Source: Streptacidiphilus anmyonensis
GTDB taxonomy: Bacteria; Actinomycetota; Actinomycetes; Streptomycetales; Streptomycetaceae
DNA: 57,568 nucleotides
Direction of reading: 5' to 3'
Assembly (NCBI RefSeq): GCF_000787855.1
Contig: NZ_BBPQ01000020.1
Span: 1 to 57,568 of the forward strand
The position numbers and the translations under genes are program-made. The notes below the pieces were generated by a model, which saw nothing but the letters and a program-made list of their open reading frames with translations, ran no database searches and was not told the DNA's origin. Below are positions 1 through 57,568 of the stretch, one piece after another (within the stretch, counting starts at the first letter, position 1; each line of letters begins with the position of its first letter).

Positions 1-3000
1 GCCAGAACTGAAGCAGCTCCAGCGCGCGGTGCACCGCCTCGCGCACCTGCTGCGGGGAGTCCGCAGCGCTACCGTCCCCGATCGGCAGGTAGAGGATGCC
101 GGGCGCGTGGTCCTCGGCGTCCAGGCGGGCGGCCAGCGCGGCCAGGTCGAGCGGGGTGTCGACGCCGTGGCCGGCGGCCAGCAGTCCGGAGGCCAGGCCC
201 AGCTGGTCGGGGCCGGCCACGGTGTGCCGCTCGGTCGGGGTCTCGGCGCCGTCGGGCAGGGTGAGCGCGGTCCAGGCCTGGGCGAAGAGGGCGTCGGCGA
301 CCGCGGCGGTACGGGTGTCGCCGCCGGTCAGCTGCTCGGGGGCGAGCGGCCGCAGCATCAGGCTCTCCACCGTGGAGACCGGCGTGCCGGTGACGTCCAC
401 GGCGGCCAGCGTCACCGCGTCGGGGCCTGCGGGCGCGATCCGCACCCGCAGGGCGGCGGCGCCCACCGCGTGCAGCGTCACCCCGCTCCAGGAGAACGGC
501 AGGCGGCCCTGGGCGGGCCGGCCGCTCTCGGCGGTCCCGGCGCCGGGCAGCGCGGCGCTCTGCAGCGCGGTGGCGTGCAGGGCGGCGTCGAGCAGCGCCG
601 GGTGCAGGCCGAAGCCGGCGGCGTCAGCGGCGCTCTCCTCGGGAAGGGCGACCTCGGCGAAGACCTCCTGACCGCGCACCCAGGCCGCGCGCAGACCCCG
701 GAAGGTCGGGCCGTAGCCGAACTGGGCCTCGGTGAGGGCCGGATAGAAGTCGGCCAGGTCGACCGGGCGGGCGTCGGCGGGCGGCCAGACGGCCGGGTCG
801 AAGCCGACCTCGGGGGCCGCGGCGGCCGTGGTGCCGAGCAGACCGTCGGCATGCCGGGTCCACGGCTCGTCGTCGGCGCCGTCCTCGGGGCGGGAGTAGA
901 CGGTCAGCGGACGCAGGCCCGACGCGTCGGCCTGGCCGACCCACAACTGCACCTGGACACCGCCCGCTTCCGGCAGCACCAGGGGCGCTTCCAGGGTCAG
1001 CTCCTCCAGCCGGTCGCAGCCGACGTGGTCGCCGGCGCGGATCGCCAGCTCGACGAAGGCGGTGCCGGGGAGCAGCACCGAGCCGGCCACCGCGTGGTCG
1101 GCCAGCCAGGGGTGGGTGGCAAGCGCGAGCCGGCCGGAGAAGAAGAAGCCGTCGCTGTCGGCCAGTGCCACAGCGGCGCCCAGCAGCGGGTGGTCGGCGG
1201 AGCCGAGGCCGATCGCGCGGGCGTCGGCGGGCAGCGCGGCCGACCGGTCGATCCAGTAGGCCTCGTGTTGGAAGGCGTAGGTGGGCAGGTCGACGCGGTG
1301 GGCGTCGAGTCCGGCGAAGACCGCGGGCCAGTCGAGCTTGACGCCGCGGGAGAAGAGCCGGCCGAGAGCGGCGGTGAAGGTCCGCGCCTCGGGGCGGCCG
1401 GGCCGCAGCACGGGGGTGAAGGCGGCCTCGCGGGTCGCGCACTCCTGGGCCAGGGCGGTGAGGGTGCCGTCCGGACCGAGCTCCAGGAAGGTGCGCGCGC
1501 CCTCGGTCTCCAGGGCCAGCACCGCGTCCTGGAAGCGGACGGCCTCGCGGACGTGCCGGACCCAGTAGTCCGGCGAGCACAGCTCCTCGGCGGTGGCGAG
1601 CCGACCCGTGAGGGTGGAGACGATCGGGATGCGCGGCGCGGCATAGGTCAGCCGCTCGGCGACCGCGCGGAAGGTGTCCAGCATGCCGTCCATCAGCGGC
1701 GAGTGGAACGCGTGACTGACCGTCAGCCGCTTGGTCCTGCGCCCCTGGGCCTCGAGCAGCTCGGCCACCTCCTGGACGGCCTGCTCGGTGCCGGAGATCA
1801 CCACGGAGGCGGGCCCGTTGACGGCGGCGATGCCGATCTCGTCGGCACGGCCGGCCAGCAGCGGCAGCACCTCGTCCTCACTCGCCCGCACGGCGGTCAT
1901 CGCGCCGCCGGCGGGCAGTTGCTGCATCAGCCGTCCGCGCGCCGCGACCAGGGCGGCGGCGTGACCGAGGGAGAGCACGCCGGAGACGTGGGCGGCGGCC
2001 AGTTCACCGATCGAGTGCCCGGCCAGGAAGTCCGGACGGACGCCCCAGGACTCGGTCAGCCGGAACAGCGCCACTTCGAGGGCGAACAGCGCGGGCTGGG
2101 TGTAGCCGGTCTGGTGGATCAGCTCGGGGTCGGCGACGGCGTCCTTGAGCGGACGGTCCAGGTAGCGGTCGAGCTCGGCGCAGACCGTGTCGTAGGCCTC
2201 GGCGAACGCGGGGAACGCCTCGTACAGTTCGGCGCCCATGGCGAGACGCTGGCTGCCCTGCCCGGCCAGCAGGTAGGCCACCTTGCCGGCCGAACCGGTG
2301 ACGCCCTGCGCCGCGTCGGCCTCGCCGCGCGTGAACGCGGCGAGTGTCTCGCGCAGTTCGGCGCGGTCGGCGCCGACCAGGACGGCGCGGTGCTCGAAGG
2401 CGGCGCGGGAGGTGGCCAGCGAGTAGGCGACGTCGGCGACGGTCGGCGCGGGCTCGGCGTCCAGGCGCGCGAGCAGCCGCTCGGCCTGGTCGGTGAGCGC
2501 CTGGGCGGTGCGGCCCGACAGCACCCACGGCACCACCGGCGTACGCGGCGTGCCGGCGACCCGCGTGTCGGTGCTCGGCGCGTCAGCGCCCTGCGTGTCG
2601 GTGCTCGGCGCGTCAGTGCCCTGCTCGGGCTCCTGGGACTCCGCCGCCGGGACAGCAGGAGCCGGGGCCGGGGCCTGCTCGATGATGGCGTGCGCGTTGG
2701 TGCCGCTGAAGCCGAAGGAGGAGACACCGGCGCGGCGCGGCTCCTCGCGCTCGGGCCAGTCCTGCTCGGTGGAGAGCAGCCGGACCGCGCCGGCGCTCCA
2801 GTCGACGACCGGTGAGGCCGTGTCGGCGTGCAGGGTGCGCGGCAGCAGCCCGTGCCGCATCGCCATCACCATCTTGATGACACCGGCCACGCCGGCCGCC
2901 GCCTGGGTGTGGGCGATGTTGGACTTCACCGAGCCCAGCCACAGCGGGTGGTCCTCGGGGCGGTCCTTGCCGTAGGTGGCCAGCAGCGCCTGGGCCTCGA

Positions 3001-4051
3001 TCGGGTCGCCGAGGGAGGTACCGGTGCCGTGCGCCTCGACCACGTCGACCTGCTGGGCCGTCAGCCGGGCGTTCTCCAGCGCCTGGCGGATCACCCGCTG
3101 CTGTGCGGGACCGCTGGGGGCGGTCAGGCCGTTGCTGGCGCCGTCCTGGTTGACGGCCGTGCCGCGCACGACGGCCAGCACCCGGTGGTTGTTGCGCCGG
3201 GCGTCGCTGAGCCGCTCCAGCAGCAGCATGCCGACGCCCTCGCCCCAGCCGGTGCCGTCGGCCTCGGCGGAGAACGCCTTGCAGCGCCCGTCGGCGGCCA
3301 GGCCGCGCTGGCGGCTGAAGTCGACGAAGGCGTCGGGGGTGGACATGACGGTCACGCCGCCGGCCAGGGCCAGCGTGGACTCGCCGCGCCGCAGCGACTG
3401 CACGGCCAAGTGGAGGGCGACCAGCGACGAGGAGCAGGCGGTGTCGATGGTGAGCGCCGGGCCTTCCAGACCGAGCGCGTAGGCGACCCGGCCGGACGCG
3501 ATGCTGGCCGAGCTGCCGGTGCCCAGGAACGCCTCGACGCCCTCCGGCACGGCGTGCAGGCGGGCGGCGTAGTTGTGGTAGATGACACCGGCGAACACGC
3601 CGGTCCGGCTGCCGCGCAGGGTGGTCGGGTCGATGCCGGCGCGCTCGAAGGCCTCCCAGGAGGTCTCCAGCAGCAGCCGCTGCTGCGGGTCCATCGCCGT
3701 CGCCTCGCGCGGCGAGATGCCGAAGAACGCCGGGTCGAAGTCGGTGGCCCGGTGCAGGAAGCCGCCCACGTCGACGTACGAGGTGCCCGGGTGGTCGGGG
3801 TCCGGGTGGTAGAGGTTGTCCAGGTCCCAGCCGCGGTTGACGGGGAACCCGTCGACGGCGTCCCGCCCCTCGCTGACCAGCTGCCACAGCTCCTCCGGCG
3901 AGCCGACGTCGCCCGGCAGGCGGCAGGCCATGCCGACGATCGCGATCGGCTCGTGGTCGGTGTCCTCCACCTCCTGGAGGCGCTGGCGGGTCTGCGCCAG
4001 ATCGGCGGTCACCCACTTGAGGTAGTCACGCAGCGTCTCTTCATTCGCCAT
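1..4051 (-). CDS. Modular type I PKS, KS-AT-DH-(KR...) module, 3' end outside window
   Basis: This is the first 1350 codons of a modular PKS that extends one malonate unit. The ATG at 4051 follows GAGGTGGG about 9 nt upstream. Residues 1-32 form the N-terminal docking coiled coil ([12 protein letters not shown]...). The KS spans about 35-455 with DTACSSS, HGTGT and NIAH; the last normally reads NIGH, so the residue before the catalytic His is Ala. The AT spans about 590-900 with GHSIGE and HAFH, a malonyl signature. The DH spans about 935-1215 with [11 protein letters not shown] and LLDAALH, so both catalytic residues are present. The sequence then enters the structural half of the KR region and leaves the window, so the KR, any ER and the ACP cannot be judged. 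The docking helix implies that an upstream PKS protein hands over the chain. The family is certain; the module position is unknown. Confidence 0.96.
2563..2622 (-). repeat. Two tandem 30-bp units in the KS-AT linker
   Basis: Units 2563-2592 and 2593-2622 differ at one base. In frame they encode the decapeptide QG(T/A)DAPSTDT twice, inside the proline-rich linker between KS and AT of the first gene. This looks like a recent in-frame slippage duplication in a tolerant linker. Confidence 0.85.
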
Positions 4052-4256
4052 CTAATTGCCCACCTCTTCAGCGCATCCGGTCGGCGCACGTCGGGCTTCG
4101 ACGGTTCTCACCGGCCGGAGTTCGCAGCAACGACCCCGACGGCATGCAGGGCCGCCGATCGGAGTCCTCGGCGACCTCGGGCGACGGGAGCTTCTCCCAG
4201 GTCGCCTACGCATTTCGCTATCCGAGATGATGGGCGGCGGCCCGACCGCCCCTCAA

Positions 4257-4273
4257 CCCCTATCCGTCCCCTA
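4257..4273 (-). promoter_or_regulatory. TAGGGG direct repeat with 11-bp spacing, candidate activator site
   Basis: On the minus strand this region reads CTAGGGGACGGATAGGGG (4274-4257), two TAGGGG boxes 11 bp apart. It lies 206-222 bp upstream of the ATG at 4051. The same arrangement occurs upstream of PKS gene C. One-turn spacing of direct repeats suits SARP-type activators, but the regulator is not known. Confidence 0.5.
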
Positions 4274-4288
4274 GGCCCTGGAGTCGGG

Positions 4289-4323
4289 GCTGCCCGCCGA
4301 CCTGCGGTGAGGCGGCGGGCAGC
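4289..4323 (-). terminator. Hairpin downstream of the NRPS gene
   Basis: An 11-bp perfect GC-rich stem (4289-4299 with 4313-4323, GCTGCCCGCCG) with a 13-nt loop lies about 40 bp past the NRPS stop codon. It has no U tract, which is common for Streptomyces terminators. Confidence 0.55.
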
Positions 4324-4364
4324 GCGGCGGCGGGCAGTGCGCGGGCACGGCGCCGCGAGGGCGG

Positions 4365-7300
4365 TCAGGCCCGCCGTTCGGCGCGGGCGAGCTCGGCCAC
4401 CCGGCCGAGGGTGGGCTCGCGCAGGATCGAGCCCAGGTGCGCCATGAACGCCTTCTCCTGGCCGGGCGTCAGTACCTCGGCGCAGACGCCGGCGAGCATG
4501 GCCAGCAGTGCCACCGAGTCACCGCCCAGGCGGTGGAAGTCGGCCGTCCCGTCGAGGCGCGAGCGTGGCACGCCGAGGGTACGGGCCCAGATGCCGGCCA
4601 CCGCCTCCTCCACCGGGTCCACCGGTACTCCGCGGTCGGGGGCGTCGCGGGCGTCGGCCGCCTCGGCCTCGGCGAACGGGTCGGGCAACGCCCGTGCGTC
4701 GACCTTACCGCTCACGGTGTAGGGCAGTTCGGGGAGCGCCATGACGGCCGCGGGCAGCATGTACGCGGGCAGGCGGCCCACCAGGTGCTCGGCCAGCTCG
4801 TCCTCGGTGACCGGCGCGTTCGTCAGCACGTAGCCGTACAGGCTCTTGCCGTGGCCGCCCTGGCTGCCCGGGCGGGTCCGGGCGATCACCACCGCGCGGT
4901 CCACGGCCGGGTGCTCCTCCAGGGCCTGGGCCACCTCCGCGGGCTCCACCCGGTGGCCGCGGATCTTGACCTGGTCGTCGATCCGCCCGACGCACTCCAG
5001 CTCGCCGGAGGGCAGGATGCGGACCAGGTCGCCGGTCCGGTAGACCCGGGTGCCGTCGGCCAGTTCGACGAAACGCTCCCGGTTGAGGTCGGGCCGCCCG
5101 AGGTAGCCGCGGGCGAGCTGGGCGCCGCCCAGGTGGAGCTCACCGATCTCGCCCGGGGCGACGTACCGCCGGTCCTCGTCCAGCAGGTGGACGGTGGTGT
5201 TGTCGGCCGGGAGGCCGATCGGCACGACCGCGCCGCGGGCGTCCCGCACCGGGTCGAAGGTGTGCGCGGTGCAGCCGATCGTCGCCTCGGTCGGCCCGTA
5301 CTCGTTGATGATCCGGCAGCCGGGGCCGAACATCTGCTGCGCCCGGGCGGCGACCTCCACCCGCAGCTGCTCGCCGATCACGATCACCGCGCGGTAGCCG
5401 CTGGGCGCGAGGTCGAGGCGGCCGATCAGGTCCAGGTGGGAGGGGGTCAGGTTCAGCATGGTGGCGCCCGAGTCCACCAGCAGCTCGCGCAGCGAGAGGT
5501 GGTTGGGCTCCGCGCGCATCAGCACCACCTCGCCGCCCGCCAGCAGCGGCAGGAAGACCGAGGTGCCTGTGACGTCGAAGGAGAGCGAGGTGACCAGCGG
5601 CAGGCGGGTGTCGGCGTCCACCCCGAACGCGCGGGTGCCCCAGTGCACGTAGTTGAGCAGGGCGCGGTGCTCGATCTGCACGCCCTTGGGCCGGCCGGTC
5701 GATCCGGAGGTGTAGATGACGTAGCAGAGGTCCGCCGGATCGATCACGGCGTCCTGGAACTCCCCCGGCGGGACGCCGTCCAGGGCCAGGTCGTCCAGGA
5801 TCAGCGGGCGGCAGCCGGGCGGGACGCAGGCGCGCTCGTCGTAGGGGCGTTGCGTCAGGCAGAAGGTGCTGCCGGAGTCGGTGAGCAGGTCGGCGATCCG
5901 CGCGTCGGGGTGGCGGGTGTCCAGCGGCAGGTAGGCGGCGCCCACCCGCAGCACGCCCCAGAGCCCGGCCATCGCCGCCACCGTGCGGTCCGCCAGCAGG
6001 CCGACCACCGTGCCCGGTCCGACGCCCTGGCGGCGCAGTTCGGTGGCGACGGCGTCCGCCCGGCGGCTGAGCTCCGCGTAGGTCACCTTGCCCTCCGGGC
6101 CGCTCAGCGCGACGCGGTCCGGGGTCCGGTCGACCTGCTCGCGGAAGAGCTCGACCACCGAGCGCTCGGACGGCAGCGGGCGGTCGGTGCGGTTGCCGGC
6201 CCACCGGCGGTTCGCCGCCGGGGAGAGCGCCTCGGCCGCGGTCTCCAGCAGCGCCTCGGCGCGCTCGGCCAGCCCCGGCGCGTCGTGCCAGGCGACGGTG
6301 ATCTCGGTACGGCCGGGGCTCTCCAGCAGGTCGATCTCCGGCGGGCCGCCGGGGCTGACTCCGCCGAGCGAGTAGACGGCGGTGGTCCGGAAGCGGTCGG
6401 TGGACAGCTCGTCGTGGTCGACGCCGCCGAGCTGCGAGAGGTAGGCGCCGGCCTGGTAGCGGCCCCGGCGCCGGGCGGCCCGGTCGATCCCGGCGTTGAC
6501 GGCCCTCATCGCCGGCACCGGCATCCTGAGCAGCCAGGAGGCGAACGGCAGGGTTAACTCCTCACGCTCGGCGAGCGAGCCGAGCAGCCGCCGCTGCACC
6601 TCCTGCCAGTCCTCCCCGGCCGCGACGTCCACCCGCAGCGCGTGGACCAGCATGGCGGTGGAGCGCAGCTCGGGGGCGTGGCGGCGCAGGTCGACGGGGA
6701 CGAAGAAGCGACCGTCGCCGGTCTCGGTGCTCGCGGCGAGCGCGGCGGCGACCTTGGCCACCGACGCCGGGTGGCGGCCGTCGACCGAGCGGCGGCGCCA
6801 GAGCAGACGCGAGGTCTGCTGCGCCGGGCTGCCGGCCAGGGCGGGCCATTCGAGTGGTGCGGCGGGCGCAGTCCGCAGCCCGGTGGCGGACGCGGCGACG
6901 CTCCGGGCCAGGTCGTGGTGGTTCAGTGGCGAGTCGTGGCCCAGCGGCGGCTCCCCGCGCAGGACCCGGAAGACGTCGCCCATCCACAGCAGCAGGCCGC
7001 GGGCGTCGGTGACGCCGTGGAAGGCGCGGAAGACCAGCGTGGTCGGCGTGGTCGGCGTTCCGGGGACCAGCACCGCCTCGCAGGTGGCGCCGGCGCCGTC
7101 CAGTCCCCGGTGCAGCGCGGGGCTGTCGAGACGCCCGCGGTCGAAGGCGCCGGGCGGAAGGACGTGCAGCTCGGGCGCGACGCCGCTGTCCACCCACCGG
7201 CGGCCCTCGCGGACCAGGCGCATGCCCGGGGACGTCTCGGCGGCGATCGCCATCGCCTCGGCCAGCTCGCCGGGCGCGAGTTCGCCCGCGCCCTCCACCA

Positions 7301-7445
7301 CGTGCTGGACCAGGCACAGCGCCGGGCGCAGGCCCAGGAAGGCCCACTCCATGGCCGTCATGTCCCGGCCGTAACGCCCGGGACCGGGCGCGGCTCCCAC
7401 CCGCGGCGGGAGGGAAGGACGTTCGTCTTCGTGTTCGGTTGTCAC
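4365..7445 (-). CDS. NRPS module: condensation-like, adenylation and carrier domains
   Basis: The protein is about 1026 aa. It should activate one amino acid as its adenylate, load it onto its own carrier and possibly condense it. Residues about 30-420 are an atypical condensation/acyltransferase-like domain: the usual HHxxxDG reads HGVTDARG (about 142), keeping His and Asp. The A domain spans about 435-920 with YTSGSTGRPKG (about 575), SFDVTGTS, NEYGPTEATIG, KIRGHRVEPAEV and SGKVDARAL. The carrier has LGGDS near 972. There is no epimerase or thioesterase. A hand-aligned specificity code is roughly D-V-T-N-I-I-E-I-G-K. This resembles Asp/Asn-type pockets but with unusual positions, so the substrate is open. 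The start is uncertain. GTG 7445 avoids translating the upstream hairpin; ATG 7361 is an alternative because codons between them are weakly GC-biased. The gene lies between PKS genes with hairpins on both sides. Confidence 0.9.
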   Translation of the reverse strand: MTTEHEDERPSLPPRVGAAPGPGRYGRDMTAMEWAFLGLRPALCLVQHVVEGAGELAPGELAEAMAIAAETSPGMRLVREGRRWVDSGVAPELHVLPPGAFDRGRLDSPALHRGLDGAGATCEAVLVPGTPTTPTTLVFRAFHGVTDARGLLLWMGDVFRVLRGEPPLGHDSPLNHHDLARSVAASATGLRTAPAAPLEWPALAGSPAQQTSRLLWRRRSVDGRHPASVAKVAAALAASTETGDGRFFVPVDLRRHAPELRSTAMLVHALRVDVAAGEDWQEVQRRLLGSLAEREELTLPFASWLLRMPVPAMRAVNAGIDRAARRRGRYQAGAYLSQLGGVDHDELSTDRFRTTAVYSLGGVSPGGPPEIDLLESPGRTEITVAWHDAPGLAERAEALLETAAEALSPAANRRWAGNRTDRPLPSERSVVELFREQVDRTPDRVALSGPEGKVTYAELSRRADAVATELRRQGVGPGTVVGLLADRTVAAMAGLWGVLRVGAAYLPLDTRHPDARIADLLTDSGSTFCLTQRPYDERACVPPGCRPLILDDLALDGVPPGEFQDAVIDPADLCYVIYTSGSTGRPKGVQIEHRALLNYVHWGTRAFGVDADTRLPLVTSLSFDVTGTSVFLPLLAGGEVVLMRAEPNHLSLRELLVDSGATMLNLTPSHLDLIGRLDLAPSGYRAVIVIGEQLRVEVAARAQQMFGPGCRIINEYGPTEATIGCTAHTFDPVRDARGAVVPIGLPADNTTVHLLDEDRRYVAPGEIGELHLGGAQLARGYLGRPDLNRERFVELADGTRVYRTGDLVRILPSGELECVGRIDDQVKIRGHRVEPAEVAQALEEHPAVDRAVVIARTRPGSQGGHGKSLYGYVLTNAPVTEDELAEHLVGRLPAYMLPAAVMALPELPYTVSGKVDARALPDPFAEAEAADARDAPDRGVPVDPVEEAVAGIWARTLGVPRSRLDGTADFHRLGGDSVALLAMLAGVCAEVLTPGQEKAFMAHLGSILREPTLGRVAELARAERRA

Positions 7446-7479
7446 CGGTGCTCGTGGTCTTTTCTGACGGTCGGAAAGC

Positions 7480-7501
7480 GGATGCCGCAGCGACGGCATC
7501 C
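7480..7501 (-). other. Small hairpin in the NRPS leader
   Basis: A perfect 8-bp inverted repeat, GGATGCCG (7480-7487) and CGGCATCC (7494-7501), has a 6-nt loop. It lies between the larger terminator-like hairpin and the NRPS start. It could be a second part of the terminator or a leader structure affecting NRPS expression. Confidence 0.45.
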
Positions 7502-7514
7502 GGCGGAACAGGAG

Positions 7515-7557
7515 GCGGCCCGGGCCCGGACGCGCTCGGCGTCCGAGCCCGGGCCGC
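7515..7557 (-). terminator. Strong hairpin after the C-B-A PKS operon
   Basis: A 19-bp stem with one mismatch (GCGGCCCGGGCCCGGACGC at 7515-7533 against 7539-7557) and a 5-nt loop begins about 21 bp past the stop of PKS gene A. The loop and stem are almost entirely GC, and no U tract follows. It probably ends or attenuates the operon before the NRPS gene. Confidence 0.7.
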
Positions 7558-7578
7558 ATCGGCTTCGTGCTCAGGCGG

Positions 7579-19419
<11,841 letters not shown>

Positions 19420-19479: not shown

Positions 19480-22400
19480 TCAGGCCATGCCCAGCTCGTT
19501 GTCGATGAAGGCGAAGAGCTCGTCGGCGGAGGCCGACTGGAGCTTCTCGGTCACCTGGGCCTCGGCCTCCCGCTCGCGCGGAGCTCCGCTCCACCGGGTC
19601 AGCAGGGCCTGGAGGCGGGCGGCGACGTCCGCCCGGGTGTCCTCGTCCTCGGAGACCGCCGCCAGCGCGGCTTCCAGCCGGTCGAGGTCGGCCAGCGACG
19701 CCGGGCCGCCCGTGCCGGCGTCCGGCAGCAGGTCCGCCCGCAGGCGGGTGGCCAGCGCGGCCGGGGTCGGGAAGTCGAACACCAGCGTCGCCGGAAGCCG
19801 GAGCCCGGTGGCGGCGCTGAGCCGGTTGCGCAGCTCCAGGGCTGTCAGCGAGTCGATGCCGAGCTCCTTGAAGGCCCGGCTGCCGACCACCTCGTCCGCC
19901 GTCTCGTGTCCGAGCGCGGCTGCCGCGTGGGCCCGCACCAGGTCGAGGACGGCCTGCTCGCGCTCGAGTTCGGCCATCTCCGCCAGACGCCGGCGCAGGT
20001 CGGTGGCGTCGGCGGGCACCGCCTGAGCGGTGGACCCGCCGCCGTCGGTGGTGCGCCGCGCCGCAGGCAGTTCGTCCAGCAGGGCGGACGCACGGACGGC
20101 CGTGAAGCCGGGCGCGAAGCGCTCCCAGACGATGTCGGCGACCGTGACCACCGTCTCGTCCAGGTCCAGGGCCCGCTGGAGGGCGGCGATCGCCGCCTCC
20201 GGCTGCATGCCCGGGAGCCCGGCCCGGTCCAGGCGGTCGCCGATCATGCCGTCCGCCGCCATGCCCGTCTCGCCCCAACGGCCCCAGGCCACCGAGGTGG
20301 CGGGCAGGCCCTCGGTCCGGCGCTGCTCGGCGAAGGCATCCAGGAAGGCGTTGGCGGCCGCGTAGTTGCCCTGGCCGGGGTCGCCGAGGGTGCCCGCGAT
20401 GCCGGAGAACAGGACGAACGCCGTCAGCTCCGACTCCCGGGTCAGCTCGTGCAGGTTGAGCACGGCGTCCACCTTCGGACGCAGCACGCCCGCGATCCGG
20501 TCGGGCGTCAGCGAGTCGAGCACGCCGTCGTCCAGGACGCCCGCGGTGTGGACCACGGCGGTCAGCGGGTGTTCCGCCGGCACGGCGGCCAGCAGTCCGG
20601 CCAGCGCCGCACGGTCGGCCGCGTCGCAGGACGCGATCGTCACCTGCGCGCCGAGGGCGAGGAGTTCCTCGCGCAGCTCGGCGGCGCCCTCGGCATCCGG
20701 GCCGCGGCGGCTGGTGAGCAGCAGGTGCGCGGCGCCGCTGCGGGCCAGCCAGCGTGCCACGTGCGCGCCGAGCGCGCCGGTGCCGCCGGTGACCAGGACG
20801 GTCCCGCTCGGGCGCCAGCCCTCGGCCGGCGTCAGGCCCGCGGGGGCGTGCACCAGTCGGCGGACGAAGACGCCGGAGGCCCGCACCGCGAGCTGGTCCT
20901 CGACCCCGGCGCCGGCCAGCACGCTCACCAGCCGGTCCAGCGCGCGCTCGTCGGAGCGCTCGCCCAGGGTCGCGGGAAGGTCCACCAGGCCGCCCCAGCG
21001 CTGCGGCTGTTCGAGCGCCGCGACCCGGCCCAGACCCCACACCAGCGACTGCGCGGGGCCCGTCGGCCGCTCGGCGCGGTTGACCGCGACCGCGCCCCGG
21101 GTCGCGCACCACAGCGGCGCCTCGATCCCGGCGTCACCCAGCGCCTGCACCAGCCCGACGGTCCCGGCCAGGCCGAGCGGCAGACCCGGGTGGTCCTGGT
21201 GCGGCCGCTCGTCCAGCGCGAGCAGCGACAGCACACCCGTCAGCTCCACGACGTCGCCCAGCTGCTTGCGCAGCACGTCGACCAGCGCCTCACGGCCCAC
21301 GTCGCGCCCGTCGAGGCCGAACGTGCGGACCTCCGCGCCGCGTCGGACCAGCGCCCGGGCAGTGTCGGCGACCCACTCCTCCTCGACCAGCGCCTCGGGG
21401 ACGACGACCGCCCAGGTGCCGGAGAGGCTCGCCGTGGGCAGGTCTCCGAGCGGCTGCCAGCTGACGCGGTAGCGCCAGCCGTCGACGGTGGACTGCTCGC
21501 GGCGGTGCCTCCGCCAGGACGACAACGCGGGCAGCACGGCGCTGAGCGGGGCGTCGTCGGTGAGGTCCAGCGAACCGGCGAGGGTCGCCAGGTCCTCGTT
21601 CTCGACGACCTCCCAGAAGGCCGCGTCCATGGGGTCGCCTGCGACGCCTGCGGACTGCTCCTCGAACCCGGCCGCCTCGGGCCAGTAGCGGCGGCGTTGG
21701 AAGGCGTACGTGGGCAGCTCGGCGCGGCGGGCGCCGGTGCCCGCGAAGACGGCGGCCTGCCAGTCCACCGCGACGCCGCGCACCCACGCCTCGGCGAAAG
21801 AGGCCAGCACCCGGCGGGCGTCCCCCTCACCGCGCCGCAGCGTGCCGAAGGCCACCGCGTCGCGGTCGGCCGCCTCGATGCTCTCCTGAAGCGCCATCAC
21901 CAGCACCGGATGCGGGCTGACCTCGATGAAGGTCCCGCAACCGCTGGTGAGAAGCGACTCGGTCGCCTCCTGCAGCCGGACCGTCGTGCGGAGGTTGGTG
22001 TACCAGTACTCGGCGTCCATCCCGGAGCCGTCGACGAGCTCGGCGGTCACCGTGGACAGCAGCGGCACCTGGCCGGGGCGCGGTTCGATGTCCGCCAGGA
22101 CCGTGAGGAGCTCCTCGCGGATCGCCTCGACCTGCGCCGAGTGCGACGCGTAGTCCACGGGAACGCGGCGCGCCCGGATGCCGTCGGCCTCGCACGAGGC
22201 CAGCAGCTCGTCCAGGGCGGCCGGTTCGCCCGAGACCACCACAGAGGTCGGGCCGTTGACGGCCGCGACCGAGATGCGGTCCTCACCCCACACTGTCAGG
22301 CGCTCGCGCACCTGCTCGACGGGCAGCGCCACCGACACCATGCCGCCGAGGCCGGCCAGGCCACCGGCGATCGCCCGACTGCGCAGCGCCACCACGCGCG

Positions 22401-24335
22401 CACCGTCGTCCAGCGACAGCGCACCCGCGACCACCGCAGCAGCGATCTCACCCTGCGAATGCCCGACCACCACGGAGGGCTCCACGCCCGCCCCGCGCCA
22501 GACCTCGGCGAGCGAGACCATCACCGCCCACAGCACCGGCTGCACCACGTCCACCCGGTCCAGCCAACCGTCACCGGCCTGGCCACGGACGACGTCCAGC
22601 AGCGACCAGTCCTCCGCAAAGGGTGCCAGCGCGGCAGCGCACGCGGCCATCCGCTGCGCGAACACCGCCGAGCACTCCAGCAACTCGACCGCCATCGCGG
22701 CCCACTGCGAACCCTGCCCCGGGAAGACGAACGCCACCTTCCCCGGAGTGCCCGCCACGCCGTGCACCACGCGCGCGTCGGGTCCGCCGGCGGCCAGCGC
22801 GGCCAGGCCGCGCCCGAGTTCGGCGGTGTCCTCGCCGAGCACCACGGCCCGGTGCTCCAGCACCGTACGACCCACCGCCAGGCTGAGGCCGAGACCCAGC
22901 GCGTCCGGCTCCGGCTGATCCGCGGCGAAGGCCCGCAGCCGTGCCGCCTGACCGCGCAGGGCGTCCTCGCCCCGGCCCGACAGCACCCACGGCACGACCG
23001 GGGCGGCGACCGCCGGAACCTCGTCCGACTGCCCGTCCGACTGCTCCGCGACGGGCTCCTGCTCGATGATCACGTGCGCGTTGGTGCCGCTGAACCCGAA
23101 GGAGGACACGCCCGCCCGACGCGGCTGCCCGGTCTCGGGCCACTGCCGCTGTTCGGTCAGCAGCGCCACCGCGCCCGTCGACCAGTCCACCTGCGGGGTG
23201 GGCTCGTCGATGTGGATGCTCTCCGGCAGCACCCCGTGGCGCATCGCCAGCACCATCTTGATGACGCCGGCCAGACCGGCCGCCGCCTGGGCGTGGCCGA
23301 TGTTGGACTTCACCGAACCCAGCCACAGCGGCCGGTCCTCGGGACGGTCCTTGCCGTAGGTGGCCAGCAGCGCCTGCGCCTCGATCGGGTCGCCCAGCGA
23401 GGTGCCCGTGCCGTGCGCCTCGACCGCGTCGACCTGGTCGGCCGTCAGGCCCGCGTTCGCGAGCGCCTGACGGATGACCCGCTGCTGCGAGGGGCCGTTC
23501 GGCGCGGTCAGCCCGTTGCTCGCGCCGTCCTGGTTGATCGCCGATCCACGGACGACGGCCAGCACCGGGTGCCCGTTGCGGCGGGCGTCGCTGAGCCGCT
23601 CGACCAGCAGCATGCCCACGCCCTCGGACGGGGTGAAGCCGTCCGCGGCGGCCGAGAACGGCTTGCAGCGTCCGTCGGAGGCCAGGCCCTGCTGACGGCT
23701 GAACTCGACGAAGGTGCCCGGCGTGGACATCACCGTGACGCCACCGGCCAGCGCCAGCTCGCACTCGCCGTTGCGCAGCGACTGCACTGCCAGGTGCAGG
23801 GCCACCAGCGAGGCCGAGCACGCGGTATCCACCGTCATCGCGGGGCCTTCGAGGCCGAACAGGTACGAGACGCGGCCCGACACCACGCTGGCCGCCGTGC
23901 CGGTGGCGACGTGGCCCTCCGCCGACTGCGCCGCGCCGGCCAGCAGGCCGAGGTAGTCGGAGCCGTTGGTGCCCGCGAAGACGCCGGTCCGGCTGCCGCG
24001 CAGGGCGGCCGGGTCGATGCCGGCGCGCTCGAAGGCCTCCCAGGAGGTCTCCAGCAGCAGCCGCTGCTGCGGGTCCATCGCCAGCGCCTCACGCGGCGAG
24101 ATCCCGAAGAAGGCGGCGTCGAAACGGCTCGCGTCGTGCAGGAACCCGCCCTGGCTGATGTAGGAGGTGCCCTGGTGGTCGCGGTCCGCGTGGAAGACGG
24201 AGTCGAGGTCCCAGCCGCGGTCAGCGGGGAACTCCGACAGCCCGTCACCGGCGTTGACCAGCAGCTGCCACAGGTCCTCGGGCGAGGACACCCCGCCGGG
24301 GAAGCGGCAGCTCATGCCGACGATCGCGATCGGCT
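19480..24335 (-). other. Gene B module 2: KS-AT(methylmalonyl)-KR(altered)-ACP
   Basis: The KS (residues about 1596-2013) has DTACSAS, HGTGT and NIGH. The AT (about 2127-2473) has GHSQGE and YASH. The KR (about 2770-2948) has [11 protein letters not shown] and NYAAAN (Tyr 2918), but LFSGIAG puts Gly 2905 at the catalytic Ser position. The ACP has GIDSL near 3087. Output is a methyl-branched hydroxyl, or a ketone if the KR is inactive. Confidence 0.9.
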
Positions 24336-27300
24336 CGTCGTCGGCGGCCCGGACCACGACCGGGGCGACGGCGGCGCTCACGGCGCCCGAGAGCTCCTCG
24401 TCGAGGTGGCGGACCAGCGCGACGGTGTTGGGGTGGTCGTAGATCAGGGTGGCGGGCAGCTTGATCCCCGCTGCCGCGCCCAGCCGGTTGCGCAGCTCGA
24501 CGGCGGTCAGCGAGTCGAAGCCCAGCTCCTTGAACGCACGGCCGGTGTCCACCGCCTCCGGGCCGGGGTAGCCCAGCGCGGCAGCGACGTGCGAGGTCAC
24601 CAGCTCCAGCAGGAGCCGCTCGCGCTCGGCGGCCGGCAGACCCGTGAGCCGGGCGGCGAAGCCGCCGTCGGCGCTCTCGACACCGCCGTCGCCGCCCGCG
24701 CCGCTCTCCAGGGCGCGCACGGCCTCGGGCACCTCGAACAGCAGCGGGCGGACCCGTCCGGAGGTGAAGGCGAGCGCGAAGCGCTTCCAGTCGATGTCGG
24801 TGACGGTCAGCACGGTCTCGCCCCGGTCCAGCGCCTGCTGGAGGGCGGTCACGGCCAGGTGCGGCGCCATCTCCAGGATGCCGTGGCGGCGCATCCGGTC
24901 GCCGACGCCGCCCTCGGCCGCCATGCCGCCCTCGCCCCACGGCCCCCAGGCCACCGAGGTGGCGGGCAGGCCGTCGGCACGGCGCTGCTCGGCCAGCGCG
25001 TCCAGGAACGCGTTCCCTGGCGCGTAGTTGCCCTGGCCCGGCGCGCCGAAGGTGGCGGCGAAGGAGGAGAAGAGCACGAACGCGGACAGGTCGAGGTCGC
25101 GGGTCAGCTCGTGCAGGTGCAGGGCGGAGTCGACCTTGACCCGCAGCACCCGCTCCAGCTGGTCGGCGGTCAGCGCCCGGATCACGGCGTCGTCGAGCAC
25201 GGCGGCGGTGTGCATCACGGCGGTGAGCGGCCGCTCGGCCGGGACGGACGCCAGCAGACCGGCCAGCGCCGCGCGGTCCGACACGTCGCACGAGGTGATC
25301 GTCACCTCGGCGCCCAGCGCGGTGAGTTCCTCGCGCAGTTCGGCGGCGCCCTCGGCGTCCGGTCCGCGGCGGCTGGTGAGCAGCAGGTGCGGGGCGCCGT
25401 TCTCCGCCAGCCAGCGGGCCACGTGCGCGCCGAGCGCGCCGGTGCCGCCGGTGACCAGGACGGTGCCGCTCGGCCGCCACGGCTCGGCCGCAGTGGATCC
25501 GGCCGGCGTCGGTCCGGCGGGGGCGTGGACCAGTCGGCGGGCGTACACGCCGGTGCCGCGCAGCGCGAGCTGGTCCTCGCCGCCGGTACCGGCCAGCACG
25601 CCGACGAGGCGCTTCAGGGCGCGCTCGTCCGGCTGCTCGGGCAGGTCCAGCAGACCGCCCCAGCGCGCCGCGTCCTCCAGCGCGGCCACCCGGCCCAGGC
25701 CCCAGACCAGCGCCTGGGCGGGCCCGTTCAGCCGCTCGGCGGCGTTCACCGCGACCGCGCCGCGCGTGGCGGTCCACACCGGCGCCTCGATCTCGGCGTC
25801 GCCCAGCGCTTGGAGCAGGATCACCGATCCGGCCAGACCGAACGGCACGGCCGGGTGGTCCGGGCATCCCTGCTCGACCAGGCCGAGTAGGGACAGCACC
25901 CCGGCGGGTGCGGCGTCCTCGGGGAGTTCGGCGCGCAGCCGCCCGGCCAGCGCCTCGCGGTCCAGGTCCGCCGGACCGACCACCAGACGCCGCACGTCGG
26001 CGCCGTGGCGGGCCAGTGCCTCGGCGGTGTCGTCCACCCACGCGTCACCGGCGAGCGCCTCGGGCACCACGAGCGCCCAGGTGCCGGAGAGCACCGGCGC
26101 GGGCAGCTCGGTCAGCGGCTGCCAGACGATCCGGTAGCGCCAGCCGTCGACGGTGGACTGCTCGCGGCGCTGTCGTCGCCAGGTCGACAGGGCCGGCAGC
26201 ACCGCGCTGAGCGGAGCGTCGTCGGCGAGGTCCAGCGAACCGGCCACCGCGGCCAGGTCCTCGCCCTCGACAGCGGCCCAGAACTCGGCCTCGACCGGGT
26301 CGAGGGCCGCCTCCCGGGGCTCGGCGGCAAGGGCGGCGGGCGCGTCCAGCCAGTAGCGGCTGCGCTGGAAGGCATAGGTGGGCAGCTCGACGCGCTGCGC
26401 GCCGGTGCCCGCGTAGACGGCGGCCTGCCAGTCCACCGCGACGCCGCGCACCCACGCCTCGGCCAGGGAGGCCGCGATCCGGCGTGCCCCGCCCTCGCCG
26501 CGTCGCAGCGTGCCGACGGTCACCGCCGACGCGTCGGCCTCCTCCAGGCACTCCTGAAGTCCCGTCAGCAGCACCGGGTGCGCGCTGACCTCGACGAAGC
26601 CGTCGATGCCGTGCGCGGTCACGGCCGCCTGGACGGCCTCGCCGAACCGCACGGTCGAACGGAGGTTGGTGTACCAGTACTCGGCGTCCATCGCCGCGCC
26701 GTCGAGCAGCTCGCCGGTCACGGTGGACAGCAGGGGGATGCGCCCGGCGCGTGGGGTGATCCCGGCCAGGGCCGTGCGCAGCTCGTCGCGCAGGGACTCG
26801 ACCTGGGCGGAGTGCGAGGCGTAGCTGACCTGCACCCGGCGCGCCCGGATCCCGTCCGCCTCGCAGGCGGCGAGCAGTTCGTCCAGCGCGGCCGGCTCGC
26901 CCGAGACGACCACCGAGGTCGGGCCGTTGACGGCCGCCACGGAGATCCGCTGCTCGCCCCAGGCGGCCAGCCGCTCGCGCGCGGCGTCGACCGGCAGGGC
27001 GAGCGAGACCATGCCGCCATGGCCTTCGAGTCCGGCGGCGATGGCCTGGCTGCGCAGCGCGACGACCTTCGCGCCGTCCTCCAGCGAGAGCGCTCCGGCC
27101 AGGACGGCGGCGGCGATCTCGCCCTGCGAGTGGCCGACGACGAGCGCGGGCTCGACGCCGCAGGCCCGCCAGACCTCGGCGAGCGACACCATCACGGCCC
27201 ACAGCACCGGCTGCACGACCTCGACCCGGTCCAGCCACTCCGTTCCGGCTCGGCCGAGCAGCACGTCCTCCAGCGACCAGTCGGTGAACGGCGCGAGAGC

Positions 27301-29115
27301 GGCGGCGCAGTCCTGGATCGCGGCGCGGAACACCGGCGACTCGTCCCACAGCCGGGCGCCCATCTCGGCCCACTGCGAGCCCTGCCCGGGGAAGACGAAC
27401 GCCACCTTGCCGACCGCCTGGGCGGTCCCTTCGACCACGTCGGCCGCGACACCGCCAGTGGCCAGCGTCAGAAGTCCCCGGCCCAGTTCGGCCTTGTCGG
27501 CCCCCAGCACCACGGCCCGCTGCTCCAGTCGGGCCCGGCCGACGGCCAGCGAGAGCCCGACGTCCAGCGCGTCCGGCGTCGACTCGCCGTCGACGAAGGC
27601 GTGCAGGCGGGACGCCTGCCCGCGCAGCCCTGCCGCGCCCCGGGCCGACACCGGCCACGGCAGCACGGTGGCGGCGATCGCCGCCACCGGCGACTCGGCG
27701 GGCTCCTCGGCCGGCGCCTGCTCCTCCGCCGTCGGCGCCTGCTCGACGATCACGTGCGCGTTGGTGCCGCTGAAGCCGAAGGAGGAGACGGCGGCCCGGC
27801 GCGGCTGCCCGGTCTCGGGCCACTCCCGCTGTTCGGTCACCAGCTCCACCGCGCCGGCCGACCAGTCCACATGCGTGGACGGCTCGGTGACGTGCAGCGT
27901 CTGCGGCAGCACGCCGTGACGCATCGCCATCACCATCTTGATGATGCCGCCGACCCCGGCCGCCGCCTGGGTGTGGCCGATGTTGGACTTGAGCGACCCG
28001 AGGAGGAGCGGCCGTCCGTCCGCCCGCTCCTGGCCGTACGTGGCCAGCAGCGCCTGCGCCTCGATCGGGTCGCCCAGCGTGGTGCCGGTGCCGTGCGCCT
28101 CGACGGCGTCGACCTGGGACGGCGTCAGACCTGCCGACGCCAGCGCCTGGCGGATCACGCGCTGCTGCGACGGGCCGTTGGGGGCGGTGAGGCCGTTACT
28201 GGCGCCGTCCTGGTTGATCGCCGAACCACGAACCACGGCGAGCACCGGGTGCCCGTTGCGCCGGGCGTCGCTGAGCCGCTCGACCAGGAGCATCCCGACG
28301 CCCTCGCCCCAGCCGGTGCCGTCGGCGTCGTCGGAGAACGCCTTGCAGCGCCCGTCGGTGGCCAGGCCGCGCTGGCGGCTGAACTCCACGAACGTGCCGG
28401 GCGTGGCCATCACGGTCACGCCACCGGCCAGCGCGAGCGTGCACTCACCGCTGCGCAACGCCTGCACGGCCAGGTGCAGGGCCACCAGCGAGGACGAGCA
28501 GGCGGTGTCCACGGTCACCGCCGGGCCCTCCAGGCCCAGCGTGTAGGAGACCCGCCCCGAGGCGACGCTGCCGAAGCTGCCGGTGCCGAGGTGCCCCTCG
28601 ACGCCCTCCGGCACCGCGCCGAGCCGGCTGGCGTACTCGTGGTACATGAGACCGGCGAAGATGCCGGTCCTGCTGCCCTTGAGCCCCGTCGGGTCGATCC
28701 CGGCCCGCTCGAACGCCTCCCAGGACGCCTCCAGCAGCAGCCGCTGCTGCGGGTCCATGGCGAGCGCCTCACGCGGCGAGATCCCGAAGAACGCCGGGTC
28801 GAACTGGCACGCGTCGTGCAGGAAGCCGCCCTGGCTGACGTAGCTGGTGCCCTGCCGGTCCGGGTCGTCGTCGATCAGCGACTCGACCTCCCAGCCCCGG
28901 TCGGTCGGGAAGCCCCCGATGGCGTCGCCTCCGTCCGACACCAGCTGCCACAGCTCCTCCGGCGAGGACACACCACCGGGGTAGCGGCAGCTCATGCCGA
29001 CGATCGCGATCGGCTCCTGGTCGCGCTCCTCCAGCTCCCGCACCCGCCGACGAGCGTTGCGCAGATCAGCGGTGGCGCGCTTGAGGTAATCGCGCAGCTT
29101 GTCCTCGTTCACCAT
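19480..29115 (-). CDS. Modular type I PKS gene B, two methylmalonyl modules (KS-AT-KR-ACP twice)
   Basis: This protein of about 3211 aa adds two methylmalonyl units and has no DH or ER. ATG 29115 is chosen because GAGGAACG lies about 6 nt upstream and the protein then begins directly with the docking helix MVNEDKLRDYLKR. A longer frame back to 29289 would overlap gene C and encode Arg-rich sequence. The C-terminus ends in the docking motif SADELFAFIDNELGMA. Both AT domains carry GHSQGE and YASH, unlike every other AT here. Both KRs are B-type (LDD), but that of module 2 has Gly in place of the catalytic Ser. It is the middle gene of the C-B-A operon, 59 bp after C and 60 bp before A. Confidence 0.97.
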   Translation of the reverse strand: MVNEDKLRDYLKRATADLRNARRRVRELEERDQEPIAIVGMSCRYPGGVSSPEELWQLVSDGGDAIGGFPTDRGWEVESLIDDDPDRQGTSYVSQGGFLHDACQFDPAFFGISPREALAMDPQQRLLLEASWEAFERAGIDPTGLKGSRTGIFAGLMYHEYASRLGAVPEGVEGHLGTGSFGSVASGRVSYTLGLEGPAVTVDTACSSSLVALHLAVQALRSGECTLALAGGVTVMATPGTFVEFSRQRGLATDGRCKAFSDDADGTGWGEGVGMLLVERLSDARRNGHPVLAVVRGSAINQDGASNGLTAPNGPSQQRVIRQALASAGLTPSQVDAVEAHGTGTTLGDPIEAQALLATYGQERADGRPLLLGSLKSNIGHTQAAAGVGGIIKMVMAMRHGVLPQTLHVTEPSTHVDWSAGAVELVTEQREWPETGQPRRAAVSSFGFSGTNAHVIVEQAPTAEEQAPAEEPAESPVAAIAATVLPWPVSARGAAGLRGQASRLHAFVDGESTPDALDVGLSLAVGRARLEQRAVVLGADKAELGRGLLTLATGGVAADVVEGTAQAVGKVAFVFPGQGSQWAEMGARLWDESPVFRAAIQDCAAALAPFTDWSLEDVLLGRAGTEWLDRVEVVQPVLWAVMVSLAEVWRACGVEPALVVGHSQGEIAAAVLAGALSLEDGAKVVALRSQAIAAGLEGHGGMVSLALPVDAARERLAAWGEQRISVAAVNGPTSVVVSGEPAALDELLAACEADGIRARRVQVSYASHSAQVESLRDELRTALAGITPRAGRIPLLSTVTGELLDGAAMDAEYWYTNLRSTVRFGEAVQAAVTAHGIDGFVEVSAHPVLLTGLQECLEEADASAVTVGTLRRGEGGARRIAASLAEAWVRGVAVDWQAAVYAGTGAQRVELPTYAFQRSRYWLDAPAALAAEPREAALDPVEAEFWAAVEGEDLAAVAGSLDLADDAPLSAVLPALSTWRRQRREQSTVDGWRYRIVWQPLTELPAPVLSGTWALVVPEALAGDAWVDDTAEALARHGADVRRLVVGPADLDREALAGRLRAELPEDAAPAGVLSLLGLVEQGCPDHPAVPFGLAGSVILLQALGDAEIEAPVWTATRGAVAVNAAERLNGPAQALVWGLGRVAALEDAARWGGLLDLPEQPDERALKRLVGVLAGTGGEDQLALRGTGVYARRLVHAPAGPTPAGSTAAEPWRPSGTVLVTGGTGALGAHVARWLAENGAPHLLLTSRRGPDAEGAAELREELTALGAEVTITSCDVSDRAALAGLLASVPAERPLTAVMHTAAVLDDAVIRALTADQLERVLRVKVDSALHLHELTRDLDLSAFVLFSSFAATFGAPGQGNYAPGNAFLDALAEQRRADGLPATSVAWGPWGEGGMAAEGGVGDRMRRHGILEMAPHLAVTALQQALDRGETVLTVTDIDWKRFALAFTSGRVRPLLFEVPEAVRALESGAGGDGGVESADGGFAARLTGLPAAERERLLLELVTSHVAAALGYPGPEAVDTGRAFKELGFDSLTAVELRNRLGAAAGIKLPATLIYDHPNTVALVRHLDEELSGAVSAAVAPVVVRAADDEPIAIVGMSCRFPGGVSSPEDLWQLLVNAGDGLSEFPADRGWDLDSVFHADRDHQGTSYISQGGFLHDASRFDAAFFGISPREALAMDPQQRLLLETSWEAFERAGIDPAALRGSRTGVFAGTNGSDYLGLLAGAAQSAEGHVATGTAASVVSGRVSYLFGLEGPAMTVDTACSASLVALHLAVQSLRNGECELALAGGVTVMSTPGTFVEFSRQQGLASDGRCKPFSAAADGFTPSEGVGMLLVERLSDARRNGHPVLAVVRGSAINQDGASNGLTAPNGPSQQRVIRQALANAGLTADQVDAVEAHGTGTSLGDPIEAQALLATYGKDRPEDRPLWLGSVKSNIGHAQAAAGLAGVIKMVLAMRHGVLPESIHIDEPTPQVDWSTGAVALLTEQRQWPETGQPRRAGVSSFGFSGTNAHVIIEQEPVAEQSDGQSDEVPAVAAPVVPWVLSGRGEDALRGQAARLRAFAADQPEPDALGLGLSLAVGRTVLEHRAVVLGEDTAELGRGLAALAAGGPDARVVHGVAGTPGKVAFVFPGQGSQWAAMAVELLECSAVFAQRMAACAAALAPFAEDWSLLDVVRGQAGDGWLDRVDVVQPVLWAVMVSLAEVWRGAGVEPSVVVGHSQGEIAAAVVAGALSLDDGARVVALRSRAIAGGLAGLGGMVSVALPVEQVRERLTVWGEDRISVAAVNGPTSVVVSGEPAALDELLASCEADGIRARRVPVDYASHSAQVEAIREELLTVLADIEPRPGQVPLLSTVTAELVDGSGMDAEYWYTNLRTTVRLQEATESLLTSGCGTFIEVSPHPVLVMALQESIEAADRDAVAFGTLRRGEGDARRVLASFAEAWVRGVAVDWQAAVFAGTGARRAELPTYAFQRRRYWPEAAGFEEQSAGVAGDPMDAAFWEVVENEDLATLAGSLDLTDDAPLSAVLPALSSWRRHRREQSTVDGWRYRVSWQPLGDLPTASLSGTWAVVVPEALVEEEWVADTARALVRRGAEVRTFGLDGRDVGREALVDVLRKQLGDVVELTGVLSLLALDERPHQDHPGLPLGLAGTVGLVQALGDAGIEAPLWCATRGAVAVNRAERPTGPAQSLVWGLGRVAALEQPQRWGGLVDLPATLGERSDERALDRLVSVLAGAGVEDQLAVRASGVFVRRLVHAPAGLTPAEGWRPSGTVLVTGGTGALGAHVARWLARSGAAHLLLTSRRGPDAEGAAELREELLALGAQVTIASCDAADRAALAGLLAAVPAEHPLTAVVHTAGVLDDGVLDSLTPDRIAGVLRPKVDAVLNLHELTRESELTAFVLFSGIAGTLGDPGQGNYAAANAFLDAFAEQRRTEGLPATSVAWGRWGETGMAADGMIGDRLDRAGLPGMQPEAAIAALQRALDLDETVVTVADIVWERFAPGFTAVRASALLDELPAARRTTDGGGSTAQAVPADATDLRRRLAEMAELEREQAVLDLVRAHAAAALGHETADEVVGSRAFKELGIDSLTALELRNRLSAATGLRLPATLVFDFPTPAALATRLRADLLPDAGTGGPASLADLDRLEAALAAVSEDEDTRADVAARLQALLTRWSGAPREREAEAQVTEKLQSASADELFAFIDNELGMA
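24360..29015 (-). other. Gene B module 1: KS-AT(methylmalonyl)-KR-ACP
   Basis: The KS (residues about 34-452) has DTACSSS, HGTGT and NIGH. The AT (about 572-918) has GHSQGE and YASH. The KR (about 1215-1395) has [25 protein letters not shown] and NYAPGN, with Ser, Tyr and Lys present. The ACP has GFDSL near 1532. Predicted output is a 2-methyl-3-hydroxy unit of the B-type series. Confidence 0.92.
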
Positions 29116-29174
29116 CTCGTCCGTTCCTCGCGGCATCTCAGTCGCGCCTGCGTCATGGGGGGCGGGAGCCCGGG

Positions 29175-44148: not shown

Positions 44149-57568
<13,420 letters not shown>

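Follow-up and report, generated by a model that had tools for sequence, protein, structure and literature searches.

LstE, encoded in the lipstatin operon of Streptomyces toxytricini, is held to add, together with LstF, N-formyl-leucine as an ester on the beta-lactone. Here, we describe a gene of related build in Streptacidiphilus anmyonensis, which occupies positions 4365..7445 (minus strand) of a DNA stretch of 57,568 nucleotides (contig NZ_BBPQ01000020.1, positions 1 to 57,568, called the window throughout). It encodes a single-module protein of the nonribosomal peptide synthetase (NRPS) type with the domain order X-A-T, in which X is an N-terminal domain, A the adenylation domain and T the carrier domain. 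As judged via the lst-type operons collected in this study, LstE shares this domain order and the X family. The window gene differs from it in that it lies in a polyketide synthase (PKS) cluster, carries another A-domain code, belongs to a separate clade and looks like a single-gene unit. The fungal AneB/ThmA system can be likened to X-A-T by description, not by sequence. Excerpts of the corresponding report portray one module that brings an amino acid to a hydroxyl group in trans and carries an xHxxxD motif without the first His, the domain order being A-T-C and the acceptor a terpene (PMC10720950). For the ester-forming AneB (QHxxxDxxS), the same excerpts state that mutation proved the His and the Asp to be essential and the first position to be dispensable. 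Canonical condensation (C) domains and PapA5/SgcC5 share the fold and the HxxxD motif with X, but there is no Pfam or PDB sequence match. Finally, the desertomycin/monazomycin-type clusters share with the cluster around X-A-T an amine oxidase, a carbon-nitrogen hydrolase, a ligase, a loading acyl carrier protein (ACP), an arginase-family enzyme and a large type I PKS; in the main-text excerpts describing them, gene tables aside, no NRPS gene is mentioned, whereas the window cluster has X-A-T (PMC4737276, PMC10322714).

Our preferred reading, to which we assign a probability of roughly 0.58, is that X-A-T is an accessory, trans-acting single-module NRPS (C*-A-T) that aminoacylates the arginoketide macrolactone of the surrounding cluster. 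The A domain would activate one amino acid with ATP and load it onto its own T domain, and X, with its HxxxD motif intact, would transfer the amino acid to a hydroxyl group (less likely to a terminal amine) of the macrolactone. Such a transfer would be analogous to the esterification of the lipstatin beta-lactone that LstE is believed to carry out. We infer acyl transfer as the reaction, an ester rather than an amide as its outcome, and the product of this PKS as the acceptor. The gene is real and its domains follow the order X-A-T, as can be seen from the following features.

4365..7445, minus strand: X-A-T single-module NRPS-like gene, 1026 amino acids, GTG start (open reading frame (ORF) translation and Pfam)
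6192..7376, minus strand: X domain, residues 24-418, condensation/chloramphenicol acetyltransferase (CAT) fold as predicted by AlphaFold2, unmatched by Pfam
6996..7019, minus strand: HGVTDARG motif, residues 143-150, catalytic HxxxD retained
4674..6176, minus strand: adenylation domain, residues ~424-924, pocket DVTNIIEIG
4491..4604, minus strand: carrier (T) domain match, residues 948-985, with LGGDS (Pfam PP-binding and sequence)

The A and T domains share one chain with X: Pfam matched AMP-binding at residues 434-782 (E 1.9e-77), AMP-binding_C at 837-914 and PP-binding at 948-985. The start codon lies at the matching alignment position in three close homologues (L002, L023, L024). Residues 1-430 gave zero Pfam matches, even at E 10. 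Neither a thioesterase nor a docking domain was found in the gene by Pfam, in line with what an initial annotation of this sequence had stated, and the PKS genes on both sides do have N-terminal docking domains (PF08990). The X family is present as a single copy in its own genome, and a search of this genome with PF00668 pointed to 10 places (one of them below the cut-off), X-A-T not being among them.

A search for X over 394 genomes of the bacterial family gave matches in 60. From a scan with one genome per species, the best 80 of 172 loci were kept, and the X domains of the window and of 79 loci were aligned (80 rows; L123, truncated at a contig end, was omitted); a first alignment had comprised 30 rows. 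H143, D147, G150 and R254 were invariant in all 80 aligned domains. At position 142 we found F (42 domains), S (13), A (10), D (6), R (4), W (2), H (2) and C (1), the first His of HHxxxDG being missing in 78/80, and at position 148 A (38), G (38) and L (4). The window motif reads FHGVTDARG, in which Phe stands for the first His and Ala for the Gly of DG. The initial annotation had emphasized HGVTDARG in place of HHxxxDG. By letter this is correct, yet the second His and the Asp, the residues that matter for catalysis, are retained.

At E 1, the condensation and acyltransferase models of Pfam matched none of the 80 family members. Sixteen Pfam families of other kinds each matched 1-3 members, the best value (0.0035) belonging to a docking model. 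A PDB sequence search with X alone gave no match up to E 10, and a profile made from the 30-row alignment retrieved three unrelated chains only (E 0.42-0.69), so that a sequence link to a solved structure was discarded. Classification of X as a canonical LCL/DCL condensation domain was rejected because of the lacking PF00668 match and the incomplete HHxxxDG motif; classification as a PapA/WES-type acyltransferase was rejected because there was no sequence membership by Pfam or PDB profile. The AlphaFold2 model based on the 80-row alignment has a two-lobed CAT-type fold (predicted local distance difference test score 92.2, predicted template modelling score 0.90), and the matches listed for it by Foldseek and VIA-align all belong to the condensation/acyltransferase superfamily. 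In VIA-align, AzeD reached a Z of 33.3, the next chain 28.2, the best C domains 26-28, PapA5 25.7 and SgcC5 22.5. This confident model marks X as a predicted, diverged condensation-fold domain; its family is little described. The earlier claim of a non-canonical condensation-like N-terminal domain thus stood up, and the profile search against condensation and PapA-like families that had been recommended as a check gave no ordinary placement in either. A closer relation to acyltransferases than to C domains, which had also been suggested, was not borne out, since X matches neither by sequence and C domains score about as high as PapA5, with AzeD ahead of both.

AzeD is a dehydratase, and AmbE-Cmod was the second-ranked Foldseek match. 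X might therefore modify the T-bound amino acid, for instance by an AzeD/AmbE-like dehydration, and leave it to another enzyme to finish the step. We consider this very improbable, because X has no sequence match to AzeD, profile included, and because X occurs without A-T in five uncut Nocardia beta-lactone-type loci, so that no T-bound amino acid is produced there by the gene itself.

An aminoacyl transfer by X-A-T would have its nearest counterpart among the relatives of the gene. KASIII, OleC-like and OleD-like genes lie beside X in 19 of the 80 loci (domains checked on representatives). These lst-type loci show 35-43% identity to the window gene (best segment), with a homologous X in which the conserved H, D, G and R are present. 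Loci with a KASIII pair, OleC-like (beta-lactone synthetase-like) and OleD-like genes and a formyltransferase match, by analogy, the lipstatin operon. Of the 12 lst-type loci having A-T, 10 also have the formyltransferase, which was found in none of the 7 loci with X alone, two of these being truncated by a contig end; L114 and L137, in which the gene caller had separated X from A-T, were both counted as X-A-T. Since the formyltransferase tracks A-T, presence of A-T is linked to a free amino group available for formylation. A TauD-like dioxygenase was found in 11 further loci; 9 of these also have a ketosynthase (KS), and 10 have an X-A-T coded DLTK[IV]GE[IV]G. One lst example (L102) starts 4 bp and one TauD example (S. 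atratus plasmid) 6 bp behind the upstream gene.

The DLTKxGExG pocket of these sister enzymes is one that we take to be of the Asn/hydroxy-Asn type. With pocket positions located via GrsA motifs, the A domain of the window gene reads DVTNIIEIG, which resembles DLTK[IV]GE[IV]G except for N278 and I301. Comparison of these codes supports the odd, Asp/Asn-like (Asx-like) pocket of the initial annotation. Reading the amino acid from PDB matches of the A domain was abandoned, as the top scores (LgrA) sum two separate domains and carry no specificity. A code beginning with DVTN was found in 29 loci besides the window; 16 of these and the window end in EIG, 9 end in LIG and 4 continue with ITQVG.

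The gene is surrounded by the following features of the window.

2..4051, minus strand: downstream PKS gene, cut by the contig end, N-terminal docking domain
7579..19419, minus strand: upstream bimodular PKS gene with a docking domain at the N-terminus and, by eye, a docking tail at the C-terminus
19480..39848, minus strand: two more PKS genes belonging to this cluster (19480..29115 and 29175..39848)
40293..42160, plus strand: ABC transporter pair (Pfam on the first gene only)
42305..43750, plus strand: PMT/ArnT-like glycosyltransferase (PF13231)
44149..57568, minus strand: PKS gene continuing past the window end (20-base N gap at C134 57569-57588)

C134, the contig that holds the window, and C105 were joined solely by synteny with the unbroken clusters of the genomes G164 and G178. 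Together they encode a PKS with a loading ACP, a CoA ligase, a VinK-like acyltransferase, a carbon-nitrogen hydrolase and an amine oxidase; a phosphopantetheinyl transferase, a metallophosphatase, a LAL regulator, a type II thioesterase and an arginase-family enzyme (arginase/agmatinase) are also present, and the last PKS terminates in a thioesterase. KASIII, OleD and formyltransferase had no match at E 1e-5 among the called genes of C134 and C105, and an OleC query retrieved from them only the CoA ligase and X-A-T itself (25%). According to excerpts of two reports, arginoketides (amino-marginolactones) are made with an arginine monooxygenase, an amidohydrolase, a CoA ligase, a loading ACP and an agmatinase-type amidinohydrolase (PMC4737276, PMC10322714). 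Pfam families and the loading ACP identify the same equipment here, the substrates being putative and the roles being assigned from family and arrangement, not by alignment to published sequences. By this analogy the cluster looks like an arginoketide (amino-marginolactone) PKS, and its starter is probably 4-guanidinobutyrate. Since the cluster has its own starter genes and a terminal thioesterase, X-A-T is needed neither as starter nor as release module. Both roles had been considered in the initial annotation and can be dropped: the amine oxidase, carbon-nitrogen hydrolase, CoA ligase, VinK-like acyltransferase and loading ACP form a set that would already supply the starter, and for a terminal amino acid, tetramate or release step the last PKS has its thioesterase.

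Condensation-domain folds usually form amides. The same enzyme could accordingly acylate the terminal primary amine that the amidinohydrolase liberates, yielding an amide, e.g. for masking or self-protection. The cluster encodes an enzyme of the arginase/agmatinase family, and such enzymes release the amine of amino-marginolactones, as excerpts of the two reports state (PMC4737276, PMC10322714). We nevertheless regard an amide as unlikely: X-family relatives reside in lst-type operons, in which an ester is believed to be made, and 11 genomes that lack a close amine-oxidase match have DVTN genes as well.

The junction between the two flanking PKS genes was compared among related genomes. G006, a genome of the same genus, has no X match at E 1e-5 and an amine-oxidase match of 88%. 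On either side of its PKS junction the sequence aligns to the window (91% and 97%), but X-A-T is missing; the hairpin stretch described below is directly followed by a 64-bp remnant of the 3' end of X-A-T (84%, E 1.9e-12; next best 0.069), and the PKS frames are open on each side (~1.2 kb per side read). Sequence comparison suggests that X-A-T was lost here by deletion. At the G162 junction, we found ~490 bp of non-coding DNA with no trace of X-A-T above chance, whereas G148 has two small ORFs there and its X-A-T on a different contig. The window, G164 and G178 have X-A-T at this junction, G178 with three extra genes between X-A-T and the next PKS gene, and in S. neutrinimicus (G007) X-A-T adjoins the same upstream PKS, where the contig ends. 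The contents of the junction differ among G006, G162, G148 and G178, which makes it a variable site; X-A-T is accordingly an accessory gene. The extra DNA of G178 (joined-stretch 52012-57167) holds two ligase-like genes (932 and 521 amino acids; by eye) and a 221-amino-acid gene.

Work in trans, one of the options of the initial annotation, is supported by the missing docking domain and by the absence of the gene from the G006 junction. An in-line module between two PKS proteins, which would put an amino acid into the chain or supply the starter, would suit the position between two same-strand PKS genes. We regard it as extremely improbable, as a docking domain is missing, a separate starter set exists, and the G006 junction lacks X-A-T and has open PKS frames. 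The starter, tetramate/amide-release and in-line readings were dropped in view of the starter set, the terminal thioesterase, the docking pattern and the G006 junction.

X-A-T may alternatively be a passenger that acts on some other metabolite and merely sits at a tolerant spot between PKS genes. In 0 of the 29 DVTN loci was a same-strand neighbour called within ~100 bp (crude gene caller; some loci cut by contig ends), so that these genes look monocistronic; their neighbours vary, and at the junction G148 has two small ORFs and G178 additional genes. We consider a passenger quite unlikely, because X-A-T co-occurs with the starter-type amine oxidase and recurs at this very junction in the window, G164 and G178 and beside the same upstream PKS in S. 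neutrinimicus.

The gaps on either side of the gene contain three non-coding features.

7515..7557, minus strand: upstream hairpin with a 19-bp stem between the upstream PKS end and X-A-T, terminator-like, no T run
7480..7501, minus strand: second upstream hairpin with a 9-bp stem (folding)
4052..4281, minus strand: non-coding DNA preceding the downstream PKS gene, conserved whether or not a strain has X-A-T at this place

Hairpins on both sides had been annotated. The upstream gap (7446-7578), which contains the 19-bp and 9-bp stems, indeed folds beyond its shuffles (z -4.46), but the downstream gap does not fold clearly better than shuffled sequence (z -0.43 for 4232-4364, z -1.50 for 4052-4200). 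A T-tailed terminator was found in neither the upstream nor the downstream gap. Compared without a shuffle control, the first hairpin is nearly identical in S. neutrinimicus, and G164 and G178 have long hairpins of differing sequence at the corresponding spot. The stretch 4052..4281 matches G006 with 97%, G148 with 85% and G162 with 86% (the latter two from 4274), and the alignments continue into the downstream PKS gene; it is likely, as we infer, the own promoter/leader of that gene.

On a tree of X alone, the DVTN members form one clade (SH-aLRT 96, quick method) apart from the lst type. Mean identities within this clade are 53.9% for X, 71.3% for A and 61.2% for T. When pairs with an X identity of 40-50% are considered, A averages 68.3% in the DVTN clade (176 pairs) vs 45.5% in the lst type (42 pairs). 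A single amino acid combined with many acceptors would fit this pattern; recombination that homogenises the A domains is an alternative explanation for their likeness. A tentative extension of our proposal is that the members of the DVTN clade represent a portable gene for aminoacylation, in which A-T stays constant for the same unusual small/polar amino acid, X diverges per acceptor, and the gene is gained and lost at hairpin-marked PKS sites, so that strains would differ in plain vs decorated macrolide.

For co-occurrence, the arginine-monooxygenase-like amine oxidase was used as query, which also finds a 62-67% relative widely (296 of 394 genomes at E 1e-100). DVTN X-A-T was present in 10 of the 22 genomes with a match of at least 69% vs 11 of the 372 others (odds ratio 27, Fisher p 7e-9, uncorrected for kinship); the 69% cut was chosen after the list was seen, the next genomes standing at 64-67%. 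With matches of at least 81%, the gene was present in 5/7 genomes. Of the 60 X-positive genomes, 31 had loci available and 29 yielded a code; the remaining 31 genomes were counted as non-DVTN; the count took the best locus per genome only, and three DVTS-coded relatives were not counted as DVTN. A KS was found in the fetched flanks (up to 10 kb a side) of 6/29 DVTN loci, and a type II thioesterase plus LAL regulator in four further ones. In S. naganishii, a PKS with a match to the loading PKS of G164 (63%) is located ~10 kb away from the DVTN gene.

Several observations weigh against the proposed aminoacylation of the macrolactone. The top structural match of X is a dehydratase, and the ester role of LstE is background knowledge. 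The DVTN X-A-T forms a sister clade of the lst type and is not its orthologue. G162, in which the junction is empty, carries an X-A-T-family gene of another code elsewhere. Close amine-oxidase matches are absent from 11 of the 21 DVTN genomes, and 12 of the 22 genomes with such a match have no DVTN X-A-T. Moreover, 23/29 DVTN loci are KS-free in the flanks, so that the link of X-A-T to this PKS may be loose.

If aminoacylation by X-A-T is true, arginine-derived macrolides (antibiotics, fungal signals) bear an amino-acid decoration that we did not find mentioned in the literature searched, and self-contained aminoacyl transferases invisible to the condensation model of Pfam become open to genome mining. 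A near-fixed A-T with a variable X would then offer natural acceptor-specific parts for amino-acid esters of complex polyketides, and strain pairs with and without X-A-T would be natural knock-outs for product finding.

Some further observations concern the window cluster and the relatives of X-A-T. The N run at C134 57569-57588 splits one PKS gene into the called ORFs 44149..57531 and 57558..59744, and G164 and G178 have a single unbroken ORF at this place (5176 and 5203 amino acids); the break is an assembly gap and not biological. A 481-amino-acid look-alike of the 42305..43750 glycosyltransferase occurs at the same spot in G178 and none was called in G164; this gene may be an accessory tailoring gene, too.

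In five Nocardia loci (L116, L120, L129, L130, L139), X is a stand-alone gene in a KASIII-OleC-OleD setting with an MMPL transporter and without a formyltransferase match; there, X may acylate nocardiolactone-type products with a non-amino-acid group. L093, L097, L103-L106 and the S. atratus plasmid locus L161 are PKS clusters with the TauD-like dioxygenase beside X-A-T, the code of which is Asn-like in all but L161 (code not read). An annotated menaquinone biosynthesis protein is additionally encoded in L161 and a metallophosphatase in the other six, that of L105 being 66% identical to the one of the window cluster. These clusters possibly make hydroxy-asparagine esters of polyketides. In Dactylosporangium (L098, L100, L107, L135), we found two complete X-A-T genes and, at the edge of the stretch, the 3' portion of a further A-T gene, in a cluster with an ABC transporter, a glycosyltransferase, an FkbM-like gene (names by eye) and a KS-bearing gene. 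A plasmid search for the X family returned 23 records, two of which were examined as annotated regions. On plasmid p1 of S. angustmyceticus (616 kb; L160), an X-family NRPS gene with 50% identity adjoins an ACP S-malonyltransferase, a futalosine menaquinone gene set, KASIII and a PKS.

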